Position numbers and translations under genes: made by a program. From Ilumatobacter sp. (GTDB taxonomy: Bacteria > Actinomycetota > Acidimicrobiia > Acidimicrobiales > Ilumatobacteraceae), in contig JABDKP010000146.1 in the NCBI GenBank assembly GCA_013002175.1, positions 1 through 43,192 of the forward strand: a stretch of 43,192 bases of DNA, read 5' to 3'. A model generated the notes under the pieces. The model worked only from the letters and a program-made list of their open reading frames with translations. It made no database searches and was not told the origin of the DNA. Every line of letters begins with the position of its first letter. The stretch's first letter is position 1. Positions 15,507 through 25,759 of this stretch are shown here, piece after piece.

Positions 15507-16678
15507 ACCCGTATCAGACGATCGAGGCGGCGCGCCCGTCCGTGCCGCCGATGCCGCCGATCGCCCGGCGTCATCTGCGCGAGCACCTGTTCGAGATCGC
15601 CACACGATCGCAGACGTCGCTGGGCGACCCCAACGTCACCGCGCCGAACACCGCCCGCGGGAACGCCGCTCGGCTCGCGGCGCTGGCCCTCCTCGGCGTC
15701 GTCGGTGTCGGCGGGCTCGCGTATTCGGCGTCGCGGGGCGCGGAGACCAACGTTGCCGCTCCGAACGCCGCCACGACCGTGCCCGTCACCACCGGCCCCC
15801 CGACCACCCCGAACACCGTCCTCCAGCCGCCGCCTCCGACGATCGCACCGACGACGACCGAGGTGCCCGAGCCCGGCACGGAGGCGACACCGTTGCTGCT
15901 GCCGGTCGGGCGCCAGCCACTGGACGAGCTCACCGTCGTCCGTCGCTCGCTCGGCGGCGCGTCACTCCTGCTCAGGGCCCCGGACCTGTCGACGATCTCG
16001 ATCCACGAGGCGGACGGCATCCAGCCCGAGCCGCCGGCGCCACCCGGCACCGACGAAGCAGGGATCACGATCCCGGTCGTCCAGCCACAGGTCGTCGGGA
16101 CGCTGGAGGTGATCCACGACGGGACGATCTACGACGTCGCCGTGCCATGCGGGACCCTGCATGTTCGTGACCGCGATGGCTCGATCCCGTACCGGCCCGA
16201 GATCGTCTCGCTGCTCAGCTCGATCCGGCTCGATCGCGGCACGATCAACGTGGCGCTCCCTGCCGGCTGGGGCGTCATCGGTGCAGGCCCGAGCACCGAC
16301 GCATTCACGTTCGGGCTGCCCGTGGACATCGCCGAGCGCGAAGTGACCGTGTCGCTCACGCAGTATCCGGACGGCAACCTCGCGATCGCGGGCGTCGGTG
16401 GCCAGTGGTCGCCGATCACGTTCCTCGGTCAACCGGCGTGGATCAGCCGAGATGCCGACGACGCCACCGAGATCGAGGTGATCGGCTTCGTCGGGACGAC
16501 CGCCTTCCGGATCGGTGCGCGCGCGGTCGACGTCGCGGACCTCGAGGCCGTGGTCACCGGGCTGGAGCCCGGTGACGTCGACGAATGGATCACGCGGTTC
16601 GGTGAACTCCCGCCGGCCACCGATCCGGACATCCGAATCTGTCAGGCGCAGCCCGAGTTCGCCGTCACCTCAGTGTGA
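15503..16678 (+). CDS. single-pass membrane protein, probable sigma-factor partner
   Basis: A 391-residue protein. A cytoplasmic N-terminus of about 52 residues (MNPYQTIEAARPSVPPMPPIARRHLREHLFE) is followed by one membrane segment (LAALALLGVVGVGGLAYSA, about 57-75), a Thr/Pro-rich extracytoplasmic spacer (about 88-135) and a folded domain of about 250 residues with two cysteines (VAVPCGTLH, IRICQAQ). I do not recognise the outer domain. The 4-base overlap with the ECF sigma gene suggests an anti-sigma or sensor, but the HxxxCxxC zinc anti-sigma motif is absent. It converges on the LPETG gene with a 9-base overlap. Confidence 0.8.
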   Translation: MNPYQTIEAARPSVPPMPPIARRHLREHLFEIATRSQTSLGDPNVTAPNTARGNAARLAALALLGVVGVGGLAYSASRGAETNVAAPNAATTVPVTTGPPTTPNTVLQPPPPTIAPTTTEVPEPGTEATPLLLPVGRQPLDELTVVRRSLGGASLLLRAPDLSTISIHEADGIQPEPPAPPGTDEAGITIPVVQPQVVGTLEVIHDGTIYDVAVPCGTLHVRDRDGSIPYRPEIVSLLSSIRLDRGTINVALPAGWGVIGAGPSTDAFTFGLPVDIAEREVTVSLTQYPDGNLAIAGVGGQWSPITFLGQPAWISRDADDATEIEVIGFVGTTAFRIGARAVDVADLEAVVTGLEPGDVDEWITRFGELPPATDPDIRICQAQPEFAVTSV

Positions 16679-18484
16679 CAACGGAAACTGGCGCCGACGC
16701 GACGCCGACGCAAGCAACGCCAGCCCGGCGAACATCGACCCGAAACCGATCGTCAGCATCATGCCGACGTTGCGAGGGCCGGTCTCGGGCAGGTCGACGT
16801 CGAGGTCAGGTGTCGATGCCACCTCGGTCGTCTCGGCGGGGTCGCCGCACGTGCCGCTGACCGCCGAGTTGTTGGCGTCACCGCTGTAGGTCGCCACCCA
16901 GCGATAGGTGCCGGGAACCGTCGGCGTGAAGAGGCCGGACGCCACCGACCCGCCGGCGACCGGGTACGCCACGCCCAAGGACTCGAAGATCGGCGCGCCG
17001 GCGCAGCCGACGTCGTTGGGACCATAGAGCTTGAAGTCGATCGTGGCGCCCGCGACGGGGTTGACGCGGCCGGTCACCGTGGCGATGTCGGACATCGCGT
17101 TGCCGTCGCCGACGAAGACATCGGCAGACGCTGCCGTGGTGATCACCGGCGTGTTGAGCGAGACGACCGTCGTCTCGGTCGCGTCGCCACACGTGCCTGT
17201 TGCCGGCTTGTTGTTGACGTCACCGCTGTAACTCGCCACCCAGCGGTGGGTGCCGGGCGCGGTCGGGGTGTAGGTCCCCGACGACACCGCTCCGCCGGCG
17301 ATCGGGTAGGGCACCGCGAGCGATTCGAAGACCGGGGTGCCGGCGCATGTCGCGTCGCTGGGCCCGTACAACCGGAAGTCGACCGTGCCGCCCGCGTCGG
17401 GGTTGACGCGCCCGGTGACCGTGGCGCTGTCGCTGAGGTCGCCCGTCCCCAACGTCACGTTCGCCGAGGCCGTCGTGACGATCGCAGGCTGCGCCTTGCT
17501 GACATCGGTCTGTTCGGTGACATCGCCGCACGTACCGCTCACGGTGTTGTTGTTGGTGTCACCGTTGTACGTGGCGACCCAGCGGTGGGTGCCCGTCTGC
17601 GTCGGGGTGTAGGCCGCGGACGTCACCGGGCCGCCGGTGACCGGATAGGCGACATCGAGACTCTCGAACACCGGTGTGCCGGTGCACGTCGGGTCGTTCG
17701 GGCCGAAGAGCCGGAACGACACGGTCGCCGTGGGATCGGGGTTGGCGCGACCGGTGACGATCACCGTGTCGGTCAACGTACCCGCGCCGAGGGCGACGTC
17801 TGCGCTGGCCGTCGTGGCGATCACCGGGGTGGCGCGCTGCACCGTCGTCCCACTGCTCGTGCCACGTGCCGAGGCCGTGACCTGGCGGCCTGCCGGGCCG
17901 GAGCGCTGGGTGTTGTCGGTGATCTGGAGGGTCTGCACGCCCGGCGCGGCGAGCGCGTCGAGCGACGGCATCCGCAGGACGTCGAACGTGAAGTCGATCG
18001 TGCACTCGGCGTCGCGCGCGCTGAGGACGACGTTCGCCCCACCGGTGGGAGTGAACCGCACTCGTCCCGAGGCGGCGTCGCTGAGGTCGATGTCGAAGCT
18101 GATGCCCGCGCATTCGGTCCCGGCTGCACCGGTGCCCGTCGACGAGATGTCGAACACCCCCGGGTCGAACCCCGCCGTCTGGCAACCGGTGAACCCGCCC
18201 TGCTGACCGCACGACGCGATCAGGGTGATCCCCGGGTCGCCGGCCGGGCATGGTGCGGCATCACCGAAGTTGCACACCGTGTTCGCATCCGCAGTGTTGG
18301 GGGCGGTGTTCGTGTTGGTGAACATGATCGACGCCGGCACGTTCGTCTGGCCGACGGTGACGAGCGTCGGGAACGTCGGCGTCGCGCTGTTGCCGACGCC
18401 GGCTTGGGCGACGCTCGGGACGAACGTCAGCACCGACAGGACGACGGCGACGACGACACCGAGTGAACGCAACAACTTCGACAT
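16670..18484 (-). CDS. LPETG-anchored surface protein with three Ig-like repeats
   Basis: A 604-residue exported protein. A signal peptide ends at VAQA-G (about 28). A Cys-rich N-terminal domain (about 30-215) follows, then three tandem Ig-like repeats of exactly 113 residues (220-332, 333-445, 446-558), each with a Cys pair 52 residues apart. The C-terminus has LPETG (565-569), a hydrophobic helix and RRR, the full sortase-sorting signal. The product is therefore expected to be covalently fixed to the cell wall and to act in adhesion or as a surface layer. No sortase gene lies in the window. The start has AAGAGGA a few bases upstream of ATG 18484. Confidence 0.9.
   Translation of the reverse strand: MSKLLRSLGVVVAVVLSVLTFVPSVAQAGVGNSATPTFPTLVTVGQTNVPASIMFTNTNTAPNTADANTVCNFGDAAPCPAGDPGITLIASCGQQGGFTGCQTAGFDPGVFDISSTGTGAAGTECAGISFDIDLSDAASGRVRFTPTGGANVVLSARDAECTIDFTFDVLRMPSLDALAAPGVQTLQITDNTQRSGPAGRQVTASARGTSSGTTVQRATPVIATTASADVALGAGTLTDTVIVTGRANPDPTATVSFRLFGPNDPTCTGTPVFESLDVAYPVTGGPVTSAAYTPTQTGTHRWVATYNGDTNNNTVSGTCGDVTEQTDVSKAQPAIVTTASANVTLGTGDLSDSATVTGRVNPDAGGTVDFRLYGPSDATCAGTPVFESLAVPYPIAGGAVSSGTYTPTAPGTHRWVASYSGDVNNKPATGTCGDATETTVVSLNTPVITTAASADVFVGDGNAMSDIATVTGRVNPVAGATIDFKLYGPNDVGCAGAPIFESLGVAYPVAGGSVASGLFTPTVPGTYRWVATYSGDANNSAVSGTCGDPAETTEVASTPDLDVDLPETGPRNVGMMLTIGFGSMFAGLALLASASRRRQFPLSH
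16811..17827 (-). repeat. three tandem 339-bp coding repeats
   Basis: Repeats lie at 17489-17827, 17150-17488 and 16811-17149. Each encodes 113 residues with shared blocks TVTGRVNP, LYGPND, FESL, GTHRWVATYSGD and SGTCGD. The DNA has diverged enough that recombination between units is probably limited. Confidence 0.85.
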
Positions 18485-18631
18485 GGCAGATTCCTCTTGG
18501 TTCGTGGCGGGGGGACGGGCGCGACGGCACCTGACCTCCGGAGCACCATAACCCCTCGTACCCACCGGAGTTGTCATCGGCCACGACCGAACGCCGGGCG
18601 TCGCATCGCGGGTGCTGCGCCGGATCGGCCG

Positions 18632-19711
18632 TCACGTCGGCGGCTCGACGACGAGCGACCCGTCCGCGATCGCATCGATCACGGCATCGGCGCGGGCCCG
18701 AACGGCGGGATCGAGCCCGAAACCGTCGTTGAACTCGATGCCGAGCCCGCCGTTCGCGAAGGTCGCCACGAAGGCCTCGCCCCCGGTCGAACCGGTGGCG
18801 ATCCGGTCCACCATCGGCGCGAGCACCACCTCCCAGTGGTACACCTGCGAGGCGACGACGACATCGGGTCCGAGTTCCCGCTGGTCGGACTGGGTCCCGA
18901 ACCAGGGCGCCCCCGAGTCGACCGCGACGCCGATCGCCCCGGTCACCATCTGCCCTGACCCGGTCAGTACGTCGACGCCGTCCGCGACCAGGGCCTGTGC
19001 GGCCTCGGACGCCAACCGGACGTCACTGAACGAGTCGATGTAGATGACGTCGACGACGGCAGCGGCGGCCTCGGCGGTGACGCCACGCCTGAATCCGGAG
19101 ATGTAGGCCCTCGCGTCACCGGCAGGCACCGGCCCGACGACCCCGATCAGGTTCGACGACGTCAGTGCTGCTGCGATGACCCCGTTGACGTACCCGCCCT
19201 GCTCGGCGGCGGCCGAATAGGCGAACACGTTGGCCCCGGCCATCGACGACGTCCCGCTCGCGAACGCGACGTCCGGGTACTCGTCGGCGACGTCCTGGAC
19301 CACCCGGCCGAATTGCACGCCGTGCGCGATCACCAGATCGTGCCCGCCGTCGGCGAACCCACGCAGCGCCTCCTCCGCGTCGTCCGCGTCGACGAGCCCG
19401 GCCGCGACGTCGACGTCGATGTCGCGCTCGGTACCGAGACGTTCCAGTGAATCGATCATCGACTGGGTCCATGCCCGGTCGTCCTCGGCACCTGGCGCGA
19501 CGAGACCGATCCGGAACGCTGCGGAGGTGACCGGTGTCGCAGTCGTCGCCGGCGTCGATGGCGGAGCCGCGACCGTGACGGCCACGGGACCGCTCGCCGG
19601 ATCGGGCGAGTCGGAGCATGCGGTGGCCACGAACCCGCATGCGACCAGGCCCACGACCACCCACCAGGCAGGCCGCCGGTTCCGCGAGCGCGCCAGCGAG
19701 GTGTCAGCCAC
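18632..19711 (-). CDS. BMP/PnrA-like substrate-binding lipoprotein
   Basis: A 359-residue lipoprotein of the basic-membrane-protein family (PnrA/Med), the solute receptors of nucleoside ABC importers. The signal is WWVVVGLVACGFVATAC, with the lipid Cys at about 32, then a Thr/Ala/Pro linker. Core motifs are FRIGLVAPGAEDDRAWTQSM (about 66-85), GHDLVIAHGVQFG, VAFASGTSSMAGANVFAYSAAAEQGGYVNGVIAA and GVDVLTGSGQMV. PnrA proteins bind purine nucleosides, which fits the purine-type operon just upstream on the same strand. No ATPase or permease is nearby, so it may serve a distant importer or act as a sensor. The GTG start has TAGGGT exactly 7 bases upstream. Confidence 0.88.
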   Translation of the reverse strand: MADTSLARSRNRRPAWWVVVGLVACGFVATACSDSPDPASGPVAVTVAAPPSTPATTATPVTSAAFRIGLVAPGAEDDRAWTQSMIDSLERLGTERDIDVDVAAGLVDADDAEEALRGFADGGHDLVIAHGVQFGRVVQDVADEYPDVAFASGTSSMAGANVFAYSAAAEQGGYVNGVIAAALTSSNLIGVVGPVPAGDARAYISGFRRGVTAEAAAAVVDVIYIDSFSDVRLASEAAQALVADGVDVLTGSGQMVTGAIGVAVDSGAPWFGTQSDQRELGPDVVVASQVYHWEVVLAPMVDRIATGSTGGEAFVATFANGGLGIEFNDGFGLDPAVRARADAVIDAIADGSLVVEPPT

Positions 19712-19735: not shown

Positions 19736-20806
19736 TCAGGCGAGGGCGGCGTGCAGGCGGGCGGCCTGCTCGGCTGCCTTGGCGCGGACCTCGTCGGCGT
19801 CGACCCGGGTGGCCACCCCGTCACGCAGCGCCGGTGCACCGTCGATGTCGACGTCGACCGCCCGGATCGTCGGCGTGAAGGCGACATGCCACGGTTCCAG
19901 CGGTGCGTACGACCAGGTCACAGCGTCGTCGCGGACATCCGGGAAGAGATCCCGGCCGTGGAGCAGCCACGACCAGGCCTGATCCGGGCCCGAGTTGACG
20001 TCGTGCTCGCGCTGCTTGACGTAGGCGAGTTGGAACTCGGCGAGCATGTCGGCGCCGATCCCGTCGGTGCCCAGCGCGACCGGGTTGGCGAATCGGGCCG
20101 GGTCGGCGTACCCGACCGAGTTGTTCATGTTCGACCGGGGGTTGTGCACGATCGTGCCGCGCAGCCCGTGATCGTCAGGAAGGTGGACGCCGTGGATCAG
20201 CAACCAGTCGTCCGTCGTGAGGTCGCGGATCCGATCGGCCGCCCCGACGTCGTCGACGCCCTCGGCGACGTGGATGTGCACGCCGACGCCGTGCTTGGCA
20301 GCCAGCTCAGCTGCCGCGGCGAGCGACTCGTCGGTACACGTGAACGCCGCGTGCACCCCGACCATCCCCCGGCCCCCCTCGGAGAGGAAGCGGTCGTTCT
20401 CCGCCAGGCCGGCGGCGAGCCCGGCCGCGCCGTGCCGGTCGGTGACCCCGTAGCACGTGTTGACCCGCACGCCGACCTCGGCGCACGCCGCCGCGATCAC
20501 CGACAGCGACCCCTCGATCGCGTTCGGCGACTCGTGATGGTCGATGATCGCGGTGCACCCGGCCTCGAGCGCTTCGAGTGCGCCGAGCTTCGCCGACCAC
20601 TCCAGCATCTGGAGATCGAGCGCCGTGTCGAGCCGCCACCAGATGTTCTCGAGGATCTCCCGGAAGTTCGCCGGCTGCTTGGGGGGCGGGGGCATCCCCC
20701 GGGCGAGCGTGGAATAGAGGTGGTGGTGCGCACAGACCAGACCTGCCGTGACCGCCTGGCTCGCGGTGCCGGTCGGCGTGCCGGTCGACGTGTCGGTGTC
20801 GGTCAT
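19736..20806 (-). CDS. SsnA-like amidohydrolase lacking the usual N-terminal domain
   Basis: A 356-residue member of the amidohydrolase superfamily resembling SsnA and guanine/8-oxoguanine deaminases. Metal-site motifs are present: AHHHLYSTLARG (H27, H29), HIHVAEG, IHGVHL, SNMNNSVGYAD and GTDGIGADM (Asp ligand). These enzymes hydrolyse amino groups from purine-type rings. The protein starts only about 25 residues before the HxH, so the N-terminal strands of the usual beta-sandwich (about 60-80 residues) are absent, and the preceding gene ends just 7 bases upstream, leaving no room for them. In E. coli, ssnA is also next to a fused molybdenum hydroxylase gene (xdhD), as here. Confidence 0.85.
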   Translation of the reverse strand: MTDTDTSTGTPTGTASQAVTAGLVCAHHHLYSTLARGMPPPPKQPANFREILENIWWRLDTALDLQMLEWSAKLGALEALEAGCTAIIDHHESPNAIEGSLSVIAAACAEVGVRVNTCYGVTDRHGAAGLAAGLAENDRFLSEGGRGMVGVHAAFTCTDESLAAAAELAAKHGVGVHIHVAEGVDDVGAADRIRDLTTDDWLLIHGVHLPDDHGLRGTIVHNPRSNMNNSVGYADPARFANPVALGTDGIGADMLAEFQLAYVKQREHDVNSGPDQAWSWLLHGRDLFPDVRDDAVTWSYAPLEPWHVAFTPTIRAVDVDIDGAPALRDGVATRVDADEVRAKAAEQAARLHAALA

Positions 20807-20813
20807 CGGCCGG

Positions 20814-23429
20814 TCAGGTCCAGGCGGACGCCCGCTCGCGATTCGCCTCGTTGCGGATCGGCAGTTCGCTGTGCCACTCGCCGGTCTGCGCCCGGATCGC
20901 CGCCGCGACCGCGCCCGCGGTCGGCACCAGACCGATCTCGCCGACGCCCTTGATGCCGTACGGGGAGTCGGGCTGCGGCGACTCGACGAGGATCACCTCG
21001 ACGGGAGGCATGTCCTTGGGCCGGATGATGTCGAGGCTGCGCAGCGTCGTGTTCACCGGGAAGCCGGTCTCGTCGCACGGGAACCCTTCGCTCAGCGCGT
21101 AACCGAGGCCCATGTGGACGGCGCCCTCGATCTGGCCCTCACACAGCATCGGGTTGACGGCGCGGCCCACGTCATGGGCCGCGACGACGTGCTCGATGTC
21201 GCCGGATTCGGGGTCGAGCACGACGACCTGCGCGGCGTATCCGAACGTGGAATGGATGATCGGGTTCTCGATGTCCTCGCCCGCTTCCTTGGCCGCGGCG
21301 ATCTGGCCGAGCGAATTGGTCCAGTCGACGCGGTAGTCGCCCTCGTAGTCGATGCCGACCTGGCACCCGTCGGCTCGTGCCGCCTCGCACGCCGCCTTGA
21401 CCGAACCGGCGCCCATCAGTGTGCCCCGGCTGCCCGTCGTCTGTCCGGCGCCCAGTTCTCGGCTGGAGTCGACGAGCACGACGATCCGCTCCGGGTCGAC
21501 GTCGAGTTCCTCGATCACCACCTGCTGCACGACGGTGTGGACGCCCTGGCCCATCTCGGTCCAGCAGTGGCGAACTTCGACCGTGCCGTCGTCATGAAAC
21601 CGCACGACCGCCTTGGCGATCTCCTTGAAACCGTTGCCGAGGCCCGAGTTCTTGAGGCCGAGGCCCATCCCGACCGGCTTCCCGGCGGCGATCGCAGCGT
21701 CATAGACCGGCTTCACCGCGTCGAGGCACGCACGCGCGCCGAGGCAGCCGTCGTCCAACACCTGGCCGGGTCCCCACGTGGCGCCCGGCACCACCACGTT
21801 GCGGCTGCGCATCTCCCACCCGGTGATCCCGATCTGCTCGGCCAACCGGTCGAGCACGCCCTCCATCGCGAACTGCGCCTGGTTCGCACCGAACCCGCGG
21901 AACGCGCCGCACACCGAGTTGTTCGTCCGCGCGGCGATCGCCTCGACGTCGACGTTGGGCACGATGTACGGCCCGGTCGCGTGGCCGGCGGCGCGTTCGA
22001 GCACCTTCATCCCGACCGACGCGTACGGGCCGGAGTCGCCGATCATCCGGACCCTGATCGCGGTCAGCGTGCCGTCGGCCTCACAGCCGGCGTCGTACTC
22101 CATCCGGATCGGATGGCGCTTCGGATGGATCAGCAGCGATTCCTCACGCGACAGCGTGATCTTCACCGGCCGGCCCGTCAACCAGGCGGCGAGCGCCGTG
22201 TGCGCCTGGTTGGACATGTCCTCCTTGCCCCCGAAGGCACCGCCGTTCGACACGAGCTCGGTCGTGATCCGGCTGGTGTCGACCCCGAGCATCGCGGCGA
22301 TGTCGTCGCGGTCGTCCCAGATGCCCTGGCCGCCGGAGTAGACGTGCAGCCCGGGCTCGCCGTCGGCGTCGTCGGTGGGCACGGCCAGCGTCGACTCCGG
22401 CTCGAGGAAGGCGTGTTCCACGCGCTGAGTCTGGAACGTCTCGTGCACCGTGTGCGCCGACGCGGCAAGCGCTGCGTCGACGTCGCCGCGGGCGTACGTC
22501 GACGTCGACAGCACGTTGCCGTCGAGCTCCCACACCGCCGGCTCGTCGCTGTGGATGACGCGCACGGGATCGACCATCGGTTCGTGCACCTCGTACTCGA
22601 CGGCGACGAGCTCGGCCGCGGCACGCGCGACCTGCCGCGAGTCGGCGACCACGACCGCGAGCACATCGCCGAGGTACGCGGTGCGCCCGCCGACGGGGAT
22701 CATGACCGGCCAGTCCTTGTGGATGATCCCGACGCGCCGGTCGCCGGGAATGTCGTCGGCCGTGAGCACGGCCTCGACACCGTCGACCGCGAGCGCCGCA
22801 GTCGTGTCGATCGCCACGACGTCCGCCCTGGCGTGCTCGCTGAGGTGGAGGGCCCCGTGCAGCAGGCCGTCCGGATACATGTCGTCGATGAAGTCGCGCG
22901 TGCCGATCGACAGCTCGCGGCCCTCGTACTTGGTGCCGCGGGCCCCGATCCCGCCCGGCCGCACCGCGACGGGCACGCACCCCTGGGCCAGTGCCTCGAC
23001 CGCATCGAGGATCTTGACGTAGCCGGTGCACCGGCAGAGATGGGCACCGAGGTGGCGCGACGCCTGGTCGCGGGTCAGTTCGGCGCCGTTCTTGTCGATC
23101 AACGCCTTGGTCCGCACGACGATGCCCGGCGTGCAGAATCCGCACTGCAGCGCACCGCATGCGGCGAAGGCCTCGGCCATCGCCGCGACCTCGGCGGGGT
23201 CGAACCCTTCGAGCGTGACGATCTCGGCACCGGCGATCTTGTCCATCGGGGTCTGGCAGGAGATCCTGGCCTTGCCGCCCATCAGGACGGTGCAGCATCC
23301 GCACTGCCCTGACGGCGAGCAGCCGTCCTTCGCCGACGTGATCCCGAGTTCCTCACGCAAGGCTGCGAGCAGATGGGGATGATCGTCGCGGGCGGTGACC
23401 GCCTCGCCATTGAGATTGAACTCGACCAT
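20814..23429 (-). CDS. fused [2Fe-2S]/molybdopterin hydroxylase, selenium-dependent xanthine dehydrogenase type
   Basis: An 871-residue enzyme combining the iron-sulfur and molybdenum subunits. The plant-type cluster motif is C37...C43, C46 and C58; the second cluster uses C96, C99, C132 and C134. The Mo-cofactor domains run from about 165 to the end, with GGAFGGKEDMSNQ, GAFRGFGANQAQFAME and the C-terminal GVGEIGLVPT carrying the catalytic Glu. This matches the family annotated as selenium-dependent xanthine dehydrogenase (XdhD-like), which hydroxylates purines or related heterocycles. The FAD domain or subunit is not in the window. ATG 23429 has GAGGAGGA (23435-23442) 5 bases upstream. It lies in the operon between the D-carbamoylase and SsnA-like genes. 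Confidence 0.9.
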   Translation of the reverse strand: MVEFNLNGEAVTARDDHPHLLAALREELGITSAKDGCSPSGQCGCCTVLMGGKARISCQTPMDKIAGAEIVTLEGFDPAEVAAMAEAFAACGALQCGFCTPGIVVRTKALIDKNGAELTRDQASRHLGAHLCRCTGYVKILDAVEALAQGCVPVAVRPGGIGARGTKYEGRELSIGTRDFIDDMYPDGLLHGALHLSEHARADVVAIDTTAALAVDGVEAVLTADDIPGDRRVGIIHKDWPVMIPVGGRTAYLGDVLAVVVADSRQVARAAAELVAVEYEVHEPMVDPVRVIHSDEPAVWELDGNVLSTSTYARGDVDAALAASAHTVHETFQTQRVEHAFLEPESTLAVPTDDADGEPGLHVYSGGQGIWDDRDDIAAMLGVDTSRITTELVSNGGAFGGKEDMSNQAHTALAAWLTGRPVKITLSREESLLIHPKRHPIRMEYDAGCEADGTLTAIRVRMIGDSGPYASVGMKVLERAAGHATGPYIVPNVDVEAIAARTNNSVCGAFRGFGANQAQFAMEGVLDRLAEQIGITGWEMRSRNVVVPGATWGPGQVLDDGCLGARACLDAVKPVYDAAIAAGKPVGMGLGLKNSGLGNGFKEIAKAVVRFHDDGTVEVRHCWTEMGQGVHTVVQQVVIEELDVDPERIVVLVDSSRELGAGQTTGSRGTLMGAGSVKAACEAARADGCQVGIDYEGDYRVDWTNSLGQIAAAKEAGEDIENPIIHSTFGYAAQVVVLDPESGDIEHVVAAHDVGRAVNPMLCEGQIEGAVHMGLGYALSEGFPCDETGFPVNTTLRSLDIIRPKDMPPVEVILVESPQPDSPYGIKGVGEIGLVPTAGAVAAAIRAQTGEWHSELPIRNEANRERASAWT

Positions 23430-23484
23430 CAGCGTCCTCCTCGTCCGATCATCTCACGGTGCGGCCACCCGCGTCCCGCGAACT

Positions 23485-24468
23485 TCATGCGTGCTCCGCG
23501 GCGTCGGGGTCGGCCTCGACGAGCGCCTGCGGCCCGGTCGTCGACGTGAGCAGCGTGTACATCTCCGGACGCCGGTAGCGGTCGAAGTCGAACAGCGTCT
23601 TCTTGTAGCGGTCGCACATGTCGAGGTCGCAGGTCGCGGTGACGAGTTCGTCGCCGATCGTCGTCGCCTGCGCCACGATCTGGCCGGACGGGGCGATGAT
23701 CGCGGTCTGGGCGAGTGACTCGACCCCCTCCTCGACGCCGCCCTTCGCCACACCGACGACCCACGTGCCGTTCTGATACGCGCCGGCCTGCATCACGAGG
23801 TGGTTGTGGAACGCCTGCAGCGGGTTCTGCGACGGGTCGGGCGCGTAGTTCAGTGGCGTGTTGTAGCCGATCAGGATCATCTCGACGCCGAGCAGGCCCA
23901 TCACGCGGTACGTCTCGGGCCACCGCCGGTCGTTGCAGATCGCCATCCCGAACACCCCGCCGAATGCCTCGTGCACTCCGAAACCGTCGGGTGATTCCTC
24001 GAAGTAGCGGCGTTCGAGATGCTGGAACTGCCGCCACGGCTCGTGGCGCTCGTGGCCGGGGATGTGCACCTTGCGGTACGAGCCGACGACGTCGCCGTCA
24101 GGGCCGACGAGGATCGCCGTGTTGTACCGGTGGCCGTCCGGCGTCAACTCCGCGTAGCCGAGGTGGAAGCCGATCTGCAGCCGTCGCGCCTCGTCGAACA
24201 GCGGTTGCGTGGCCGGGTTCGGCATCTCGCGCTCGTAATAGCTGTCGAGTTCGGTCGTGTCACCGGCGAGACCGGACTCGTCGCCCTCGTCCAGGAGCCA
24301 CCGCGGGAAGAACGTCGTGAGCGCGAGCTCCGGGAAGACGACGAGATCGCAGCCCCTCTCAGCAGCGGAGCGCAAGAGGGTGAGCAGCCGCTCGACGACT
24401 TCCTCGCGCGATTCGGCTCGCCCGATCGGGCCGAGCTGTGCCGCGCCGACGACGACCTCGCGGGTCAT
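23485..24468 (-). CDS. nitrilase-family N-carbamoyl-D-amino-acid hydrolase-like amidase
   Basis: A 327-residue carbon-nitrogen hydrolase closely patterned on D-carbamoylase (DCase). The catalytic triad is visible: E47 in FPELALTTFFPRW, K133 in YRKVHIPGHE and C178 in AICNDRRWPETYRVMG. FQHLERRYFEE and GYNTP, also DCase hallmarks, are kept. DCase cleaves N-carbamoyl groups to give amino acid, ammonia and CO2. In this operon it may act on ureido intermediates of purine or pyrimidine breakdown instead. Its ATG overlaps the stop of the upstream amidohydrolase gene as ATGA, so the two are translationally coupled. Confidence 0.92.
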   Translation of the reverse strand: MTREVVVGAAQLGPIGRAESREEVVERLLTLLRSAAERGCDLVVFPELALTTFFPRWLLDEGDESGLAGDTTELDSYYEREMPNPATQPLFDEARRLQIGFHLGYAELTPDGHRYNTAILVGPDGDVVGSYRKVHIPGHERHEPWRQFQHLERRYFEESPDGFGVHEAFGGVFGMAICNDRRWPETYRVMGLLGVEMILIGYNTPLNYAPDPSQNPLQAFHNHLVMQAGAYQNGTWVVGVAKGGVEEGVESLAQTAIIAPSGQIVAQATTIGDELVTATCDLDMCDRYKKTLFDFDRYRRPEMYTLLTSTTGPQALVEADPDAAEHA

Positions 24469-25721
24469 CGGTCGAACTCCGTCGTCGTCAACCGCAGCAT
24501 CGTCTGCAGCAGCACGTTCGCGCCGGCTGCGAGATCTTCGGGGGCGGTGTACTCGTCGACGTTGTGGCTGATCCCGCCGACGCTCTTCGTGAAGATCATC
24601 GCGGTCGGGCAGACGCGGGCCAACATCTGCGCGTCGTGGCCTGCTCCGGACGGCAGCCGCCGCGTCGTGTGCTGCAGCTCACCGGCGCACTGCTCGACGA
24701 GGTCGATCACGCCGCCGTCGAAGGCGACCGGTTCGAATCGGGCCACCGACCGCAGCTCGACATCGACCCCTTCGCGCGCCGCCGCCTGCGCGACGAACTC
24801 GCGGAAGCGCCGCTCGGCCTCCTGCAGTGTCGCCTCATCGGTGTTGCGCAGATCGACGATCAACGTCGCCGCCGAGGGTACGACGTTGACGAGGTTCGGC
24901 GTCAGGGTCAGTGAACCGACGGTGCCGACCTGCGCGCCTCCGATCTCGCCGGTCAGTTCGCGGACGTAGGCCGCGATCTGTGCGGCGACGACGCCGGGGT
25001 CGCGGCGAAGGCGCATCGGCGTCGTCCCCGCGTGGCAGGACCGGCCGGTGAGCGTGACCTCGGTCCACGAGATCCCCTGCACGCTCTCGACGACCCCGAT
25101 CGTGACGTCCTCGTCCTCCAGCACCGGACCCTGTTCGATGTGCAGCTCGACGAACGCGTGCGGCGCCGCAGCCGGCAGCGGTGCAGCCCCGCGGTAACCG
25201 ATCCGATCGAGCTCGTCGCCGACGACGGCGCCGGCCGCGTCTTCGATCAGCAGCGCGTCCTCCAGCGCGAGCCCACCGACGTACACCAGGCTGCCGAGCA
25301 TGTCCGGCTGGAAGCGCGAGCCCTCCTCGTCGGTGAAGAACCCGACCGCCAGCGGCCGGTGCAGCTCGATTCCGGCGGTCAACACCGTCTCGATGACTTC
25401 GAGGCCCGCGAGTACCCCGAGATTGCCGTCGTACCGCCCGCCGGTGGCCACGGTGTCGATGTGCGACCCGGTCATCACCGGACTGCGCCCCGACGGGTGC
25501 GGCATCGTGGCGACGACGTTGCCGATGCCGTCGATCACGACCTCGAGCCCGAGGTCGTGCATCCAGGTCGTGACGAGGTCCCGCCCGGCGCAGTCCTCGT
25601 CGGTGAGGGCGAGGCGGGCGCAGCCTGTCGTCCCCTCGATCGCGCCGACGCGGGCCAGGTCATCGAGCCGCTGCACGAGGCGATCGGAGTCGATCGACAA
25701 CGCCAGATCGGGAGATGTCAC
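24465..25721 (-). CDS. M20-family carbamoylase / allantoate amidohydrolase-type hydrolase
   Basis: A 418-residue Zn-dependent amidase of the hydantoinase/carbamoylase group (HyuC, AllC, beta-ureidopropionase). Metal ligands appear in GSHIDTVATGGRYDGNLGVLAG, FTDEEGSRF, ELHIEQGPVLE and SGAGHDAQMLA, and the dimerisation segment SCHAGTTPMRLRRD is typical. Members hydrolyse N-carbamoyl-L-amino acids, ureidopropionate or allantoate; sequence alone does not choose between them. First gene of the operon. GTG 25721 has TACTGT exactly 7 bases upstream, which argues against the longer ORF reaching 26039. Confidence 0.92.
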   Translation of the reverse strand: MTSPDLALSIDSDRLVQRLDDLARVGAIEGTTGCARLALTDEDCAGRDLVTTWMHDLGLEVVIDGIGNVVATMPHPSGRSPVMTGSHIDTVATGGRYDGNLGVLAGLEVIETVLTAGIELHRPLAVGFFTDEEGSRFQPDMLGSLVYVGGLALEDALLIEDAAGAVVGDELDRIGYRGAAPLPAAAPHAFVELHIEQGPVLEDEDVTIGVVESVQGISWTEVTLTGRSCHAGTTPMRLRRDPGVVAAQIAAYVRELTGEIGGAQVGTVGSLTLTPNLVNVVPSAATLIVDLRNTDEATLQEAERRFREFVAQAAAREGVDVELRSVARFEPVAFDGGVIDLVEQCAGELQHTTRRLPSGAGHDAQMLARVCPTAMIFTKSVGGISHNVDEYTAPEDLAAGANVLLQTMLRLTTTEFDR

Positions 25722-25728
25722 CTGCGTG

Positions 25729-25759
25729 ACAGTAGCAGCGGCGTTTGACAAAACGTCAA
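25729..25759 (-). promoter_or_regulatory. promoter and overlapping operator of the catabolic operon
   Basis: On the minus strand TTGACG (25754-25759) and TACTGT (25729-25734) form a promoter with a 19-base spacer and a leaderless GTG start. TTGAC-N5-GTCAA (25745-25759) is a perfect inverted repeat covering the -35, a good place for a repressor. A second repeat, TGTCAC-N4-GTGACA (25716-25731), covers the start codon and part of the -10. Confidence 0.5.

Follow-up and report, generated by a model that had tools for sequence, protein, structure and literature searches.

What does a bacterium do with an operon that combines two different carbamoylases, a molybdenum hydroxylase and an SsnA-like amidohydrolase? 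The question is raised by a 43,192-nucleotide stretch of DNA from Ilumatobacter sp. (hereafter the window), which is the entire contig JABDKP010000146.1 of the assembly GCA_013002175.1 (3.33 Mb in 191 contigs, 89.2% complete; labelled G000 below, where G, C and L stand for genomes, contigs and loci, respectively). The organism belongs to Acidimicrobiia and resembles Ilumatobacter. Among the best 80 of 586 named loci, the nearest SsnA was that of an Ilumatobacteraceae metagenome-assembled genome (MAG; L106, 86% identity), and the SsnA of the isolate Ilumatobacter nonamiensis YM16-303 (L110) is 81% identical to that in the window. We regard it as likely that the operon supplies the hydrolases and the molybdenum enzyme for a variant reductive urate pathway, in which both ureido groups would be removed hydrolytically. 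This reading rests on which genes are present and in what order, on homology and co-occurrence, and on the alternation of two reductases, YgfK and a luciferase-like (LLM) enzyme, from which we infer the substrates and the order of the steps.

The reductive urate (yanthine) pathway was described in 2025 for Escherichia coli and clostridia by Li et al. (PMC12507026). In the outline given there, urate is reduced to yanthine, YgfK dearomatises the latter, SsnA opens the ring to ureidomethyl-hydantoin (UMH), HyuA opens UMH to 2,3-diureidopropionate, both ureido groups are removed and YgeX carries out a cleavage. A 2013 paper (PMC4016543) had already pointed to the E. coli ygeW-ssnA cluster as a putative route for purines. 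The first-pass annotation of the window rightly stated that E. coli keeps ssnA near xdhD, as ssnA, ygfM and xdhD are consecutive in K-12. In the organism studied here, urate would be imported or formed from xanthine, and the fused molybdenum hydroxylase would reduce it to yanthine (2,8-dioxopurine). Yanthine would then be dearomatised by a reductase, namely the LLM enzyme encoded on contig C137 or, in the nearest relatives, YgfK encoded behind ssnA. The short SsnA would open the ring to UMH, a dihydropyrimidinase encoded elsewhere (contig C153) would convert this hydantoin to 2,3-diureidopropionate, and the nitrilase and the M20 amidase of the operon would remove one ureido group each, giving 2,3-diaminopropionate.

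The SsnA-like protein of the window scored 246 bits against TIGR03314 (cut-off 455.5; E 5.9e-73; model positions 55-339 of 441) and 261 bits against NF005540, below the cut-off of 444. Its barrel starts at the HxH motif, and ~50 N-terminal residues as well as several other stretches of E. coli SsnA are missing. The HxH, H, HxH, H and D motifs of the E. coli enzyme, which we take to be metal ligands, are retained, and they are conserved in 34 aligned sequences. The short form makes up a family of its own, with a median length of 341 amino acids over 52 copies (the window included, one genome counted twice, starts chosen by script). An AlphaFold model of the protein was complete (pLDDT 94.1), and its nearest folds were amidohydrolase deaminases, with a query TM of ~0.8. 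As the N-terminal strands are missing and the curated SsnA cut-offs are not reached, we label the protein a short SsnA-like enzyme, and propose that it acts as the dihydroyanthine ring-opening enzyme. The word deaminase, used in the first-pass annotation, is probably wrong, because E. coli SsnA together with YgfK converts yanthine to UMH (PMC12507026). The same paper reports SsnA in Actinomycetota and Chloroflexota, so its presence in this phylum is not new. In our survey of 296 genomes of the class, the short SsnA was present in 123 (SsnA-positive) and absent from 173 (SsnA-negative).

The distribution of the two candidate reductases follows that of SsnA. The N-terminal half of YgfK was detected, among the matches listed, in 69 of the 296 genomes, and 54 had an orthologue of the LLM enzyme that we first noticed in L042 (68-100% identity); the genomes of both groups are without exception SsnA-positive. 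YgfK matches were listed down to ~E 1e-73, at which small N-half fragments could have been missed; those covering only the GltD-like part (model position ~430 onward) were excluded, and LLM matches of 45-53% identity, below the 68% limit, were not counted as orthologues. With YgfK again taken from the matches listed, 65 SsnA-positive genomes had YgfK only, 50 LLM only, four both and four neither, and none of the 173 SsnA-negative genomes had either. An SsnA tree of 51 rows requires at least eight changes of reductase when the three rows carrying both are set aside, and 11 when both is treated as a state of its own. The starred branches of this tree gave six independent pairs. Over 200 random pairings, LLM went opposite to YgfK in 5.6 pairs on average, showed no difference in 0.4 and never went in the same direction (sign test with one of the two G196 loci, L097, left out: median two-sided P 0.031, range 0.031-0.125).

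Gene order gave the same picture. Directly behind ssnA we found LLM in 18 and YgfK in 20 of 50 class loci, and LLM in 21 and YgfK in 24 of 74 named loci, never both. The class loci were hand-picked from SsnA-positive genomes, some for their LLM neighbourhoods; the named loci overlap with the class survey; and all adjacency counts comprise only loci with enough flanking sequence, the class counts being corrected for two genomes with two loci each (L057/L097, L071/L095). Of the best 80 of 586 named loci, 35 carry LLM, 33 YgfK, none both and 12 neither. The YgfK of L038 exceeds the TIGR03315 cut-off (893 against 835 bits), that of L036 is a 627-amino-acid form without a Pyr_redox match, and in L106 a short ygfK sits between ssnA and the gene for a BMP-type lipoprotein, where the window has 24 nucleotides. 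The two reductases alternate even inside the genus of the window, as YgfK is present in G027 and G254, whereas G000 has an LLM gene (C137:13169-14155, 76% identity) and no YgfK N-terminal half among the matches listed. An LLM-type reductase was proposed for Chloroflexota by Li et al. (PMC12507026). The alternation of LLM with YgfK within one class, and even within one genus, supports the same role here, with LLM as the candidate dearomatising reductase. On C137, away from the operon, the LLM gene lies near genes that by eye resemble a 2-oxoacid:ferredoxin oxidoreductase pair and a GltD-like protein (L084 13166-14374).

The two carbamoylases were the reason for the question, and they admit another answer, in which the operon scavenges hydantoins or N-carbamoyl amino acids, the D- and L-specific enzymes splitting both enantiomers, and the molybdenum enzyme and SsnA are mere neighbours. 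The nitrilase is indeed strongly D-carbamoylase-like: it aligned over its full length with the N-carbamoyl-D-amino-acid hydrolase (DCase) of PDB 8i99 (E 6.6e-119, 400 bits), scored 168 bits against the Pfam CN_hydrolase model, and conserves the E, K and CNDRRW motifs, of which E, K and C are presumably catalytic. The M20 protein is L-carbamoylase-like, with 390 bits against TIGR01879 (hydantoinase/carbamoylase amidases; cut-off 204) and L-carbamoylases, beta-ureidopropionases and allantoate/ureidoglycolate hydrolases as PDB relatives; it belongs to the carbamoylase branch, and reached only 20 bits against the YgeY model NF009555 (a YgeY above the cut-off is found in L070). The genome also holds a dihydropyrimidinase. 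Nevertheless, scavenging appears quite improbable to us, since the nitrilase is nearly confined to SsnA-positive genomes (81 of 123, against one of 173) and the adjacency of the molybdenum hydroxylase and SsnA is conserved class-wide. The sole SsnA-negative genome with a nitrilase carries it at G131:C162:785-1693 (68% identity).

Within the reductive urate pathway, both carbamoylases could find a place. A commentary on that pathway (PMC12990295) lists as open the order of cleavage and also the configuration of the ureido intermediates, for which R, hence D, has been proposed. The nitrilase fits the 2-ureido group because it is of the D-carbamoylase type and the proposed intermediate is R, and we propose that it removes this group from (R)-2,3-diureidopropionate. 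The M20 amidase fits the 3-ureido group because its family includes beta-ureidopropionases; its proposed task is the removal of a single ureido group, of which the 3-ureido (beta-ureido) one is the most likely. We infer this allotment of the two enzymes to the two groups from their families. YgeW-like proteins were detected in 38 of the 123 SsnA-positive and two of the 173 SsnA-negative genomes, and not in G000 at E 1e-40. Among the SsnA-positive genomes, 74 had the nitrilase only, 31 a YgeW-like protein only, seven both and 11 neither. YgeW-like carbamoyltransferases occur with YqeA-like kinases in loci of relatives; YqeA was not found in the window, the rest of the genome not having been searched for it. 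In G027 and G254, a D-aminoacylase-like amidohydrolase was noticed near the cluster by eye and by tblastn.

The fused molybdenum hydroxylase, which we propose to be the urate-to-yanthine reductase, had TIGR03311 (xanthine dehydrogenase (XDH) type) as its closest model. Its residues E403, R479, F513 and E831 align with E802, R880, F914 and E1261 of bovine xanthine oxidoreductase, whose numbering and substrate roles we take as given. It is 26% identical to E. coli XdhD; the identity between the C. difficile and E. coli XdhD is 25.63% (PMC12507026). G000 encodes SelD (C113:2836-3759, 376 bits) with one in-frame TGA, like selenocysteine-containing SelD. Among the 26 genomes tested, 10 others share such an in-frame TGA, all of them SsnA-positive, and SelD exceeded its cut-off in 18 of 21 SsnA-positive against none of five SsnA-negative genomes. 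Although SelD is present, we rejected selenium-dependent XDH as a firm label, because the protein scored 801 bits against a cut-off of 830 and the maturation factor YqeB was not found in G000. In L040, L044 and L047, E. coli-type xdhD-ygfM-yqeB-yqeC genes lie on the opposite strand beside the short SsnA, and L040 and L044 additionally carry a TIGR03311-type XDH.

The M20 amidase could also be taken as an allantoate amidohydrolase, as it exceeds the cut-off of that subfamily (NF006771, 415 against 399 bits), and the operon would then serve the oxidative route from xanthine through urate, allantoin and allantoate to ureidoglycolate. This appears the least probable answer, and only a very small chance is left to it: uricase (PF01014) was not found in any of 22 genomes tested including G000 (a search that did not extend to other urate oxidases or to allantoinase), and neither SsnA nor YgfK/LLM has a known role in the oxidative route. 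The suggestion of the first-pass annotation that purine rings are broken down through ureido intermediates is upheld by the company of reductive urate genes, but not for ureides of the allantoin type, to which its proposed tests pointed. The latter are unsupported, because the accompanying genes are those of the yanthine route, whose ureides are UMH and 2,3-diureidopropionate, and because PF01014 was missing in 22 of 22 genomes.

The neighbourhood of the operon across genomes points to the reductive urate pathway as well. Immediately upstream of SsnA, 29 of the 48 class loci and 46 of the 67 named loci have XDH, and the complete set of M20 amidase, nitrilase, XDH and SsnA stands on a single strand in 14 of 47 class loci and 28 of 62 named loci. 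As both the adjacency and the co-stranded full set recur across loci, the association of the four genes is more than chance. The comparison of related genomes advised in the first-pass annotation thus found the adjacency of XDH and SsnA conserved, and reductive urate genes in the loci of relatives. In L063, for instance, the genes for the M20 amidase, nitrilase, XDH, SsnA, LLM, a YgeX-like and a HyuA-like protein are consecutive; the dihydropyrimidinase of this locus is above the TIGR02033 cut-off, and its diaminopropionate ammonia-lyase above that of NF006058 and not that of TIGR03528. The absence of a hydantoinase that had been remarked on holds for the operon and not for the genome, in which a dihydropyrimidinase relative, 44% identical to the L063 enzyme, is encoded at C153:6727-8112, unlinked to the operon. 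We searched for HyuA and YgeX in 80 hand-picked genomes, mostly of high completeness (55 of the 123 SsnA-positive and 25 of the 173 SsnA-negative ones). HyuA relatives were found in 48 of the 55 and three of the 25, respectively.

Several results weigh against our reading. (i) YgeX relatives were found in only 12 of the 55 SsnA-positive genomes and none of the 25 SsnA-negative ones. A search with the L062 protein as the query (E 1e-30) gave no YgeX in G000, and none was found in the near relatives G027, G254, G002 and G157, three of which (G027, G002 and G157) are single-contig assemblies. (ii) In G000, whose assembly is 89% complete, neither the LLM gene nor the dihydropyrimidinase gene is linked to the operon. 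(iii) The molybdenum hydroxylase and SsnA both score below their cut-offs (TIGR03311 and TIGR03314), and a genome search of G000 did not find YqeB. (iv) The alternation of the nitrilase with YgeW-like proteins is mostly clade-wise, with three changes on the tree and one informative pair of three. We accordingly dropped the replacement of YgeW by the nitrilase as strong evidence, and regard it as suggestive. In addition, the YgeW-like proteins are below the YgeW cut-off in all 40 genomes in which they were found, and for the two examined ornithine carbamoyltransferase is the better-scoring assignment. (v) CofH, an enzyme of F420 synthesis, was not found in the LLM-bearing genomes G000, G051 and G157 (other F420 genes were not searched for), and showed no association with LLM, occurring in nine of 12 LLM-positive, six of seven YgfK-positive and five of five SsnA-negative genomes. 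For these two reasons F420 should not be assumed to be the electron donor of the LLM enzyme.

Some of these results would also suit an operon that applies like chemistry to another nitrogen heterocycle, such as a different purine or a pterin- or pyrimidine-like ring, the carbamoylases cleaning up the products. The short SsnA falls below the SsnA cut-off, YgeX was not found in the window's genome, and XDH-type molybdenum enzymes are generally known to accept many purines. Glu606 of E. coli XdhD, proposed to orient urate (PMC12507026), aligns with Asp in the window's enzyme; this lies in a weakly aligned stretch, and the alignment was too weak for us to use the residue as a marker of urate reductases. 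We consider another heterocycle unlikely, because the same SsnA family accompanies a YgfK above the curated cut-off (L038) and because in L063 it has HyuA- and YgeX-like genes for company, a set familiar from urate degradation.

If the operon does belong to the reductive urate pathway, it differs from each of the systems known. With the E. coli pathway (xdhD, ygfM, ygfK, ssnA, hyuA, ygeW, yqeA, ygeY, ygeX) it shares an SsnA-type amidohydrolase beside a fused [2Fe-2S]/molybdenum hydroxylase, YgfK directly behind SsnA in relatives, and a HyuA-type enzyme in the window's genome. In contrast, SsnA lacks the N-terminal strands, an LLM oxidoreductase replaces YgfK, the molybdenum enzyme is distant from XdhD with no FAD-subunit gene in the operon, and the operon has two hydrolytic carbamoylases instead, YgeW and YgeX not having been found in the window's genome. 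As these two were searched for without success, we do not assign the operon full membership of the E. coli pathway. The variant of C. difficile and C. sporogenes (XdhD/XdhAC, UacX, UacY) likewise has a fused molybdenum enzyme distant from E. coli XdhD, without a YgfM-type FAD subunit, and hydrolytic removal of the 2-ureido group, as proposed for the window. However, UacY is a D-aminoacylase (PF07969) whereas the window has a nitrilase-type D-carbamoylase, the place of UacX, a PydA homologue, is taken here by LLM or YgfK, and C. difficile requires YqeB for urate use (PMC11448449), which was not found in G000. The proposal for Chloroflexota likewise has an LLM-class enzyme next to SsnA in the absence of YgfK; what differs here is the alternation with YgfK within one class and genus, the presence of nitrilase and M20 carbamoylases, and the failure to find CofH in three LLM-positive genomes, owing to which F420 is not taken as the donor. 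As for DCases (PDB 8i99, 1erz), the nitrilase resembles them along its whole length and in its catalytic motifs, and differs in standing in an operon of purine enzymes, with 2,3-diureidopropionate as its proposed substrate. The words 'nitrilase', 'carbamoylase' and 'Acidimicrobi' do not occur in the main text of PMC12507026, and literature searches (titles and abstract openings, with broad queries partly covered) found no description of this operon in Acidimicrobiia.

The genes of the operon and its immediate neighbours are given in the table.

Table. Genes of the putative urate operon and flanking genes in the window
Product	Position	Strand	Basis and remarks
M20 family N-carbamoyl amidase, 418 aa	24465..25721	-	GTG start; TIGR01879, NF006771
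Nitrilase-superfamily N-carbamoyl-D-amino-acid hydrolase-like enzyme, 327 aa	23485..24468	-	CN_hydrolase (Pfam), PDB 8i99
Fused [2Fe-2S]/molybdopterin hydroxylase, 871 aa	20814..23429	-	TIGR03311; FAD-subunit gene not in operon
Short SsnA-like amidohydrolase, 356 aa	19736..20806	-	TIGR03314, metal-ligand motifs
BMP/PnrA-type ABC transporter substrate-binding lipoprotein	18632..19711	-	Pfam Bmp, 138 bits
Small divergent Thiamine_BP-like protein, 78 aa	25834..26070	+	PF01910, 23 bits, below cut-off 24.9

The four genes of the first-pass annotation stand in their order, strand and spacing, and a fifth co-directional gene, for the BMP lipoprotein, extends the set: the M20 and nitrilase genes overlap by ATGA, the gap between the nitrilase and molybdenum hydroxylase genes is 55 nucleotides, that to ssnA seven, and that from ssnA to the BMP gene 24. 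We propose that the lipoprotein is a component of a purine importer; in L109 and L110, the same operon is followed downstream by genes for two permeases, a BMP protein and an ATPase. Next after the BMP gene, on the same strand, the window encodes a secreted-looking repeat protein (16670-18577) with what appears by eye to be a sorting-signal-like C-terminus. Genes resembling a three-subunit xanthine dehydrogenase flank the cluster on the same strand in L042, L052, L055, L064, L094, L098 and L103, and their products perhaps feed urate into it.

On the other side of the operon, the Thiamine_BP-like gene is conserved in L035, L036, L106 and L108-L110 (62-85% identity). A single 217-amino-acid ORF in L067 (14090-14743) combines a Thiamine_BP-like with an HTH_22 domain, and the small protein of the window is possibly an effector-binding partner of the operon's regulator. 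HTH_22 proteins are encoded divergently from the operon in many loci (e.g., L056 6034-6402; L063 15790-16164), and may be a purine-responsive regulator family. Between the M20 and the Thiamine_BP-like genes lies a perfect palindrome, TTGACAAAACGTCAA (window 25745-25759). We rejected it as a conserved operator, as it was found in one of 14 loci only, the window itself, and the 13 others do not have it at that place.

The reductive urate pathway has so far been studied in gut bacteria, and here its marker genes, with enzyme replacements, are seen in a single actinobacterial class, where 123 of 296 genomes carry them. Ilumatobacter strains are aerobes; the habitats of the MAGs were taken from record titles only. 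On balance, we lean slightly towards the view that, outside the gut, a reductive breakdown of urate without uricase is widespread among Acidimicrobiia, that an NAD(P)H-type YgfK, a short YgfK devoid of the NAD(P)H-binding portion and an LLM flavoenzyme unrelated to them have replaced one another many times in the ring-reducing step, and that a D-carbamoylase and an M20 amidase act as a matched pair in removing the two ureido groups. If this is the case, the pair would bear on the configuration and order of ureido cleavage, both of which the D-carbamoylase-type enzyme in the cluster makes directly testable in vitro, and the cluster would offer alternative, hydrolytic enzymes for urate breakdown.

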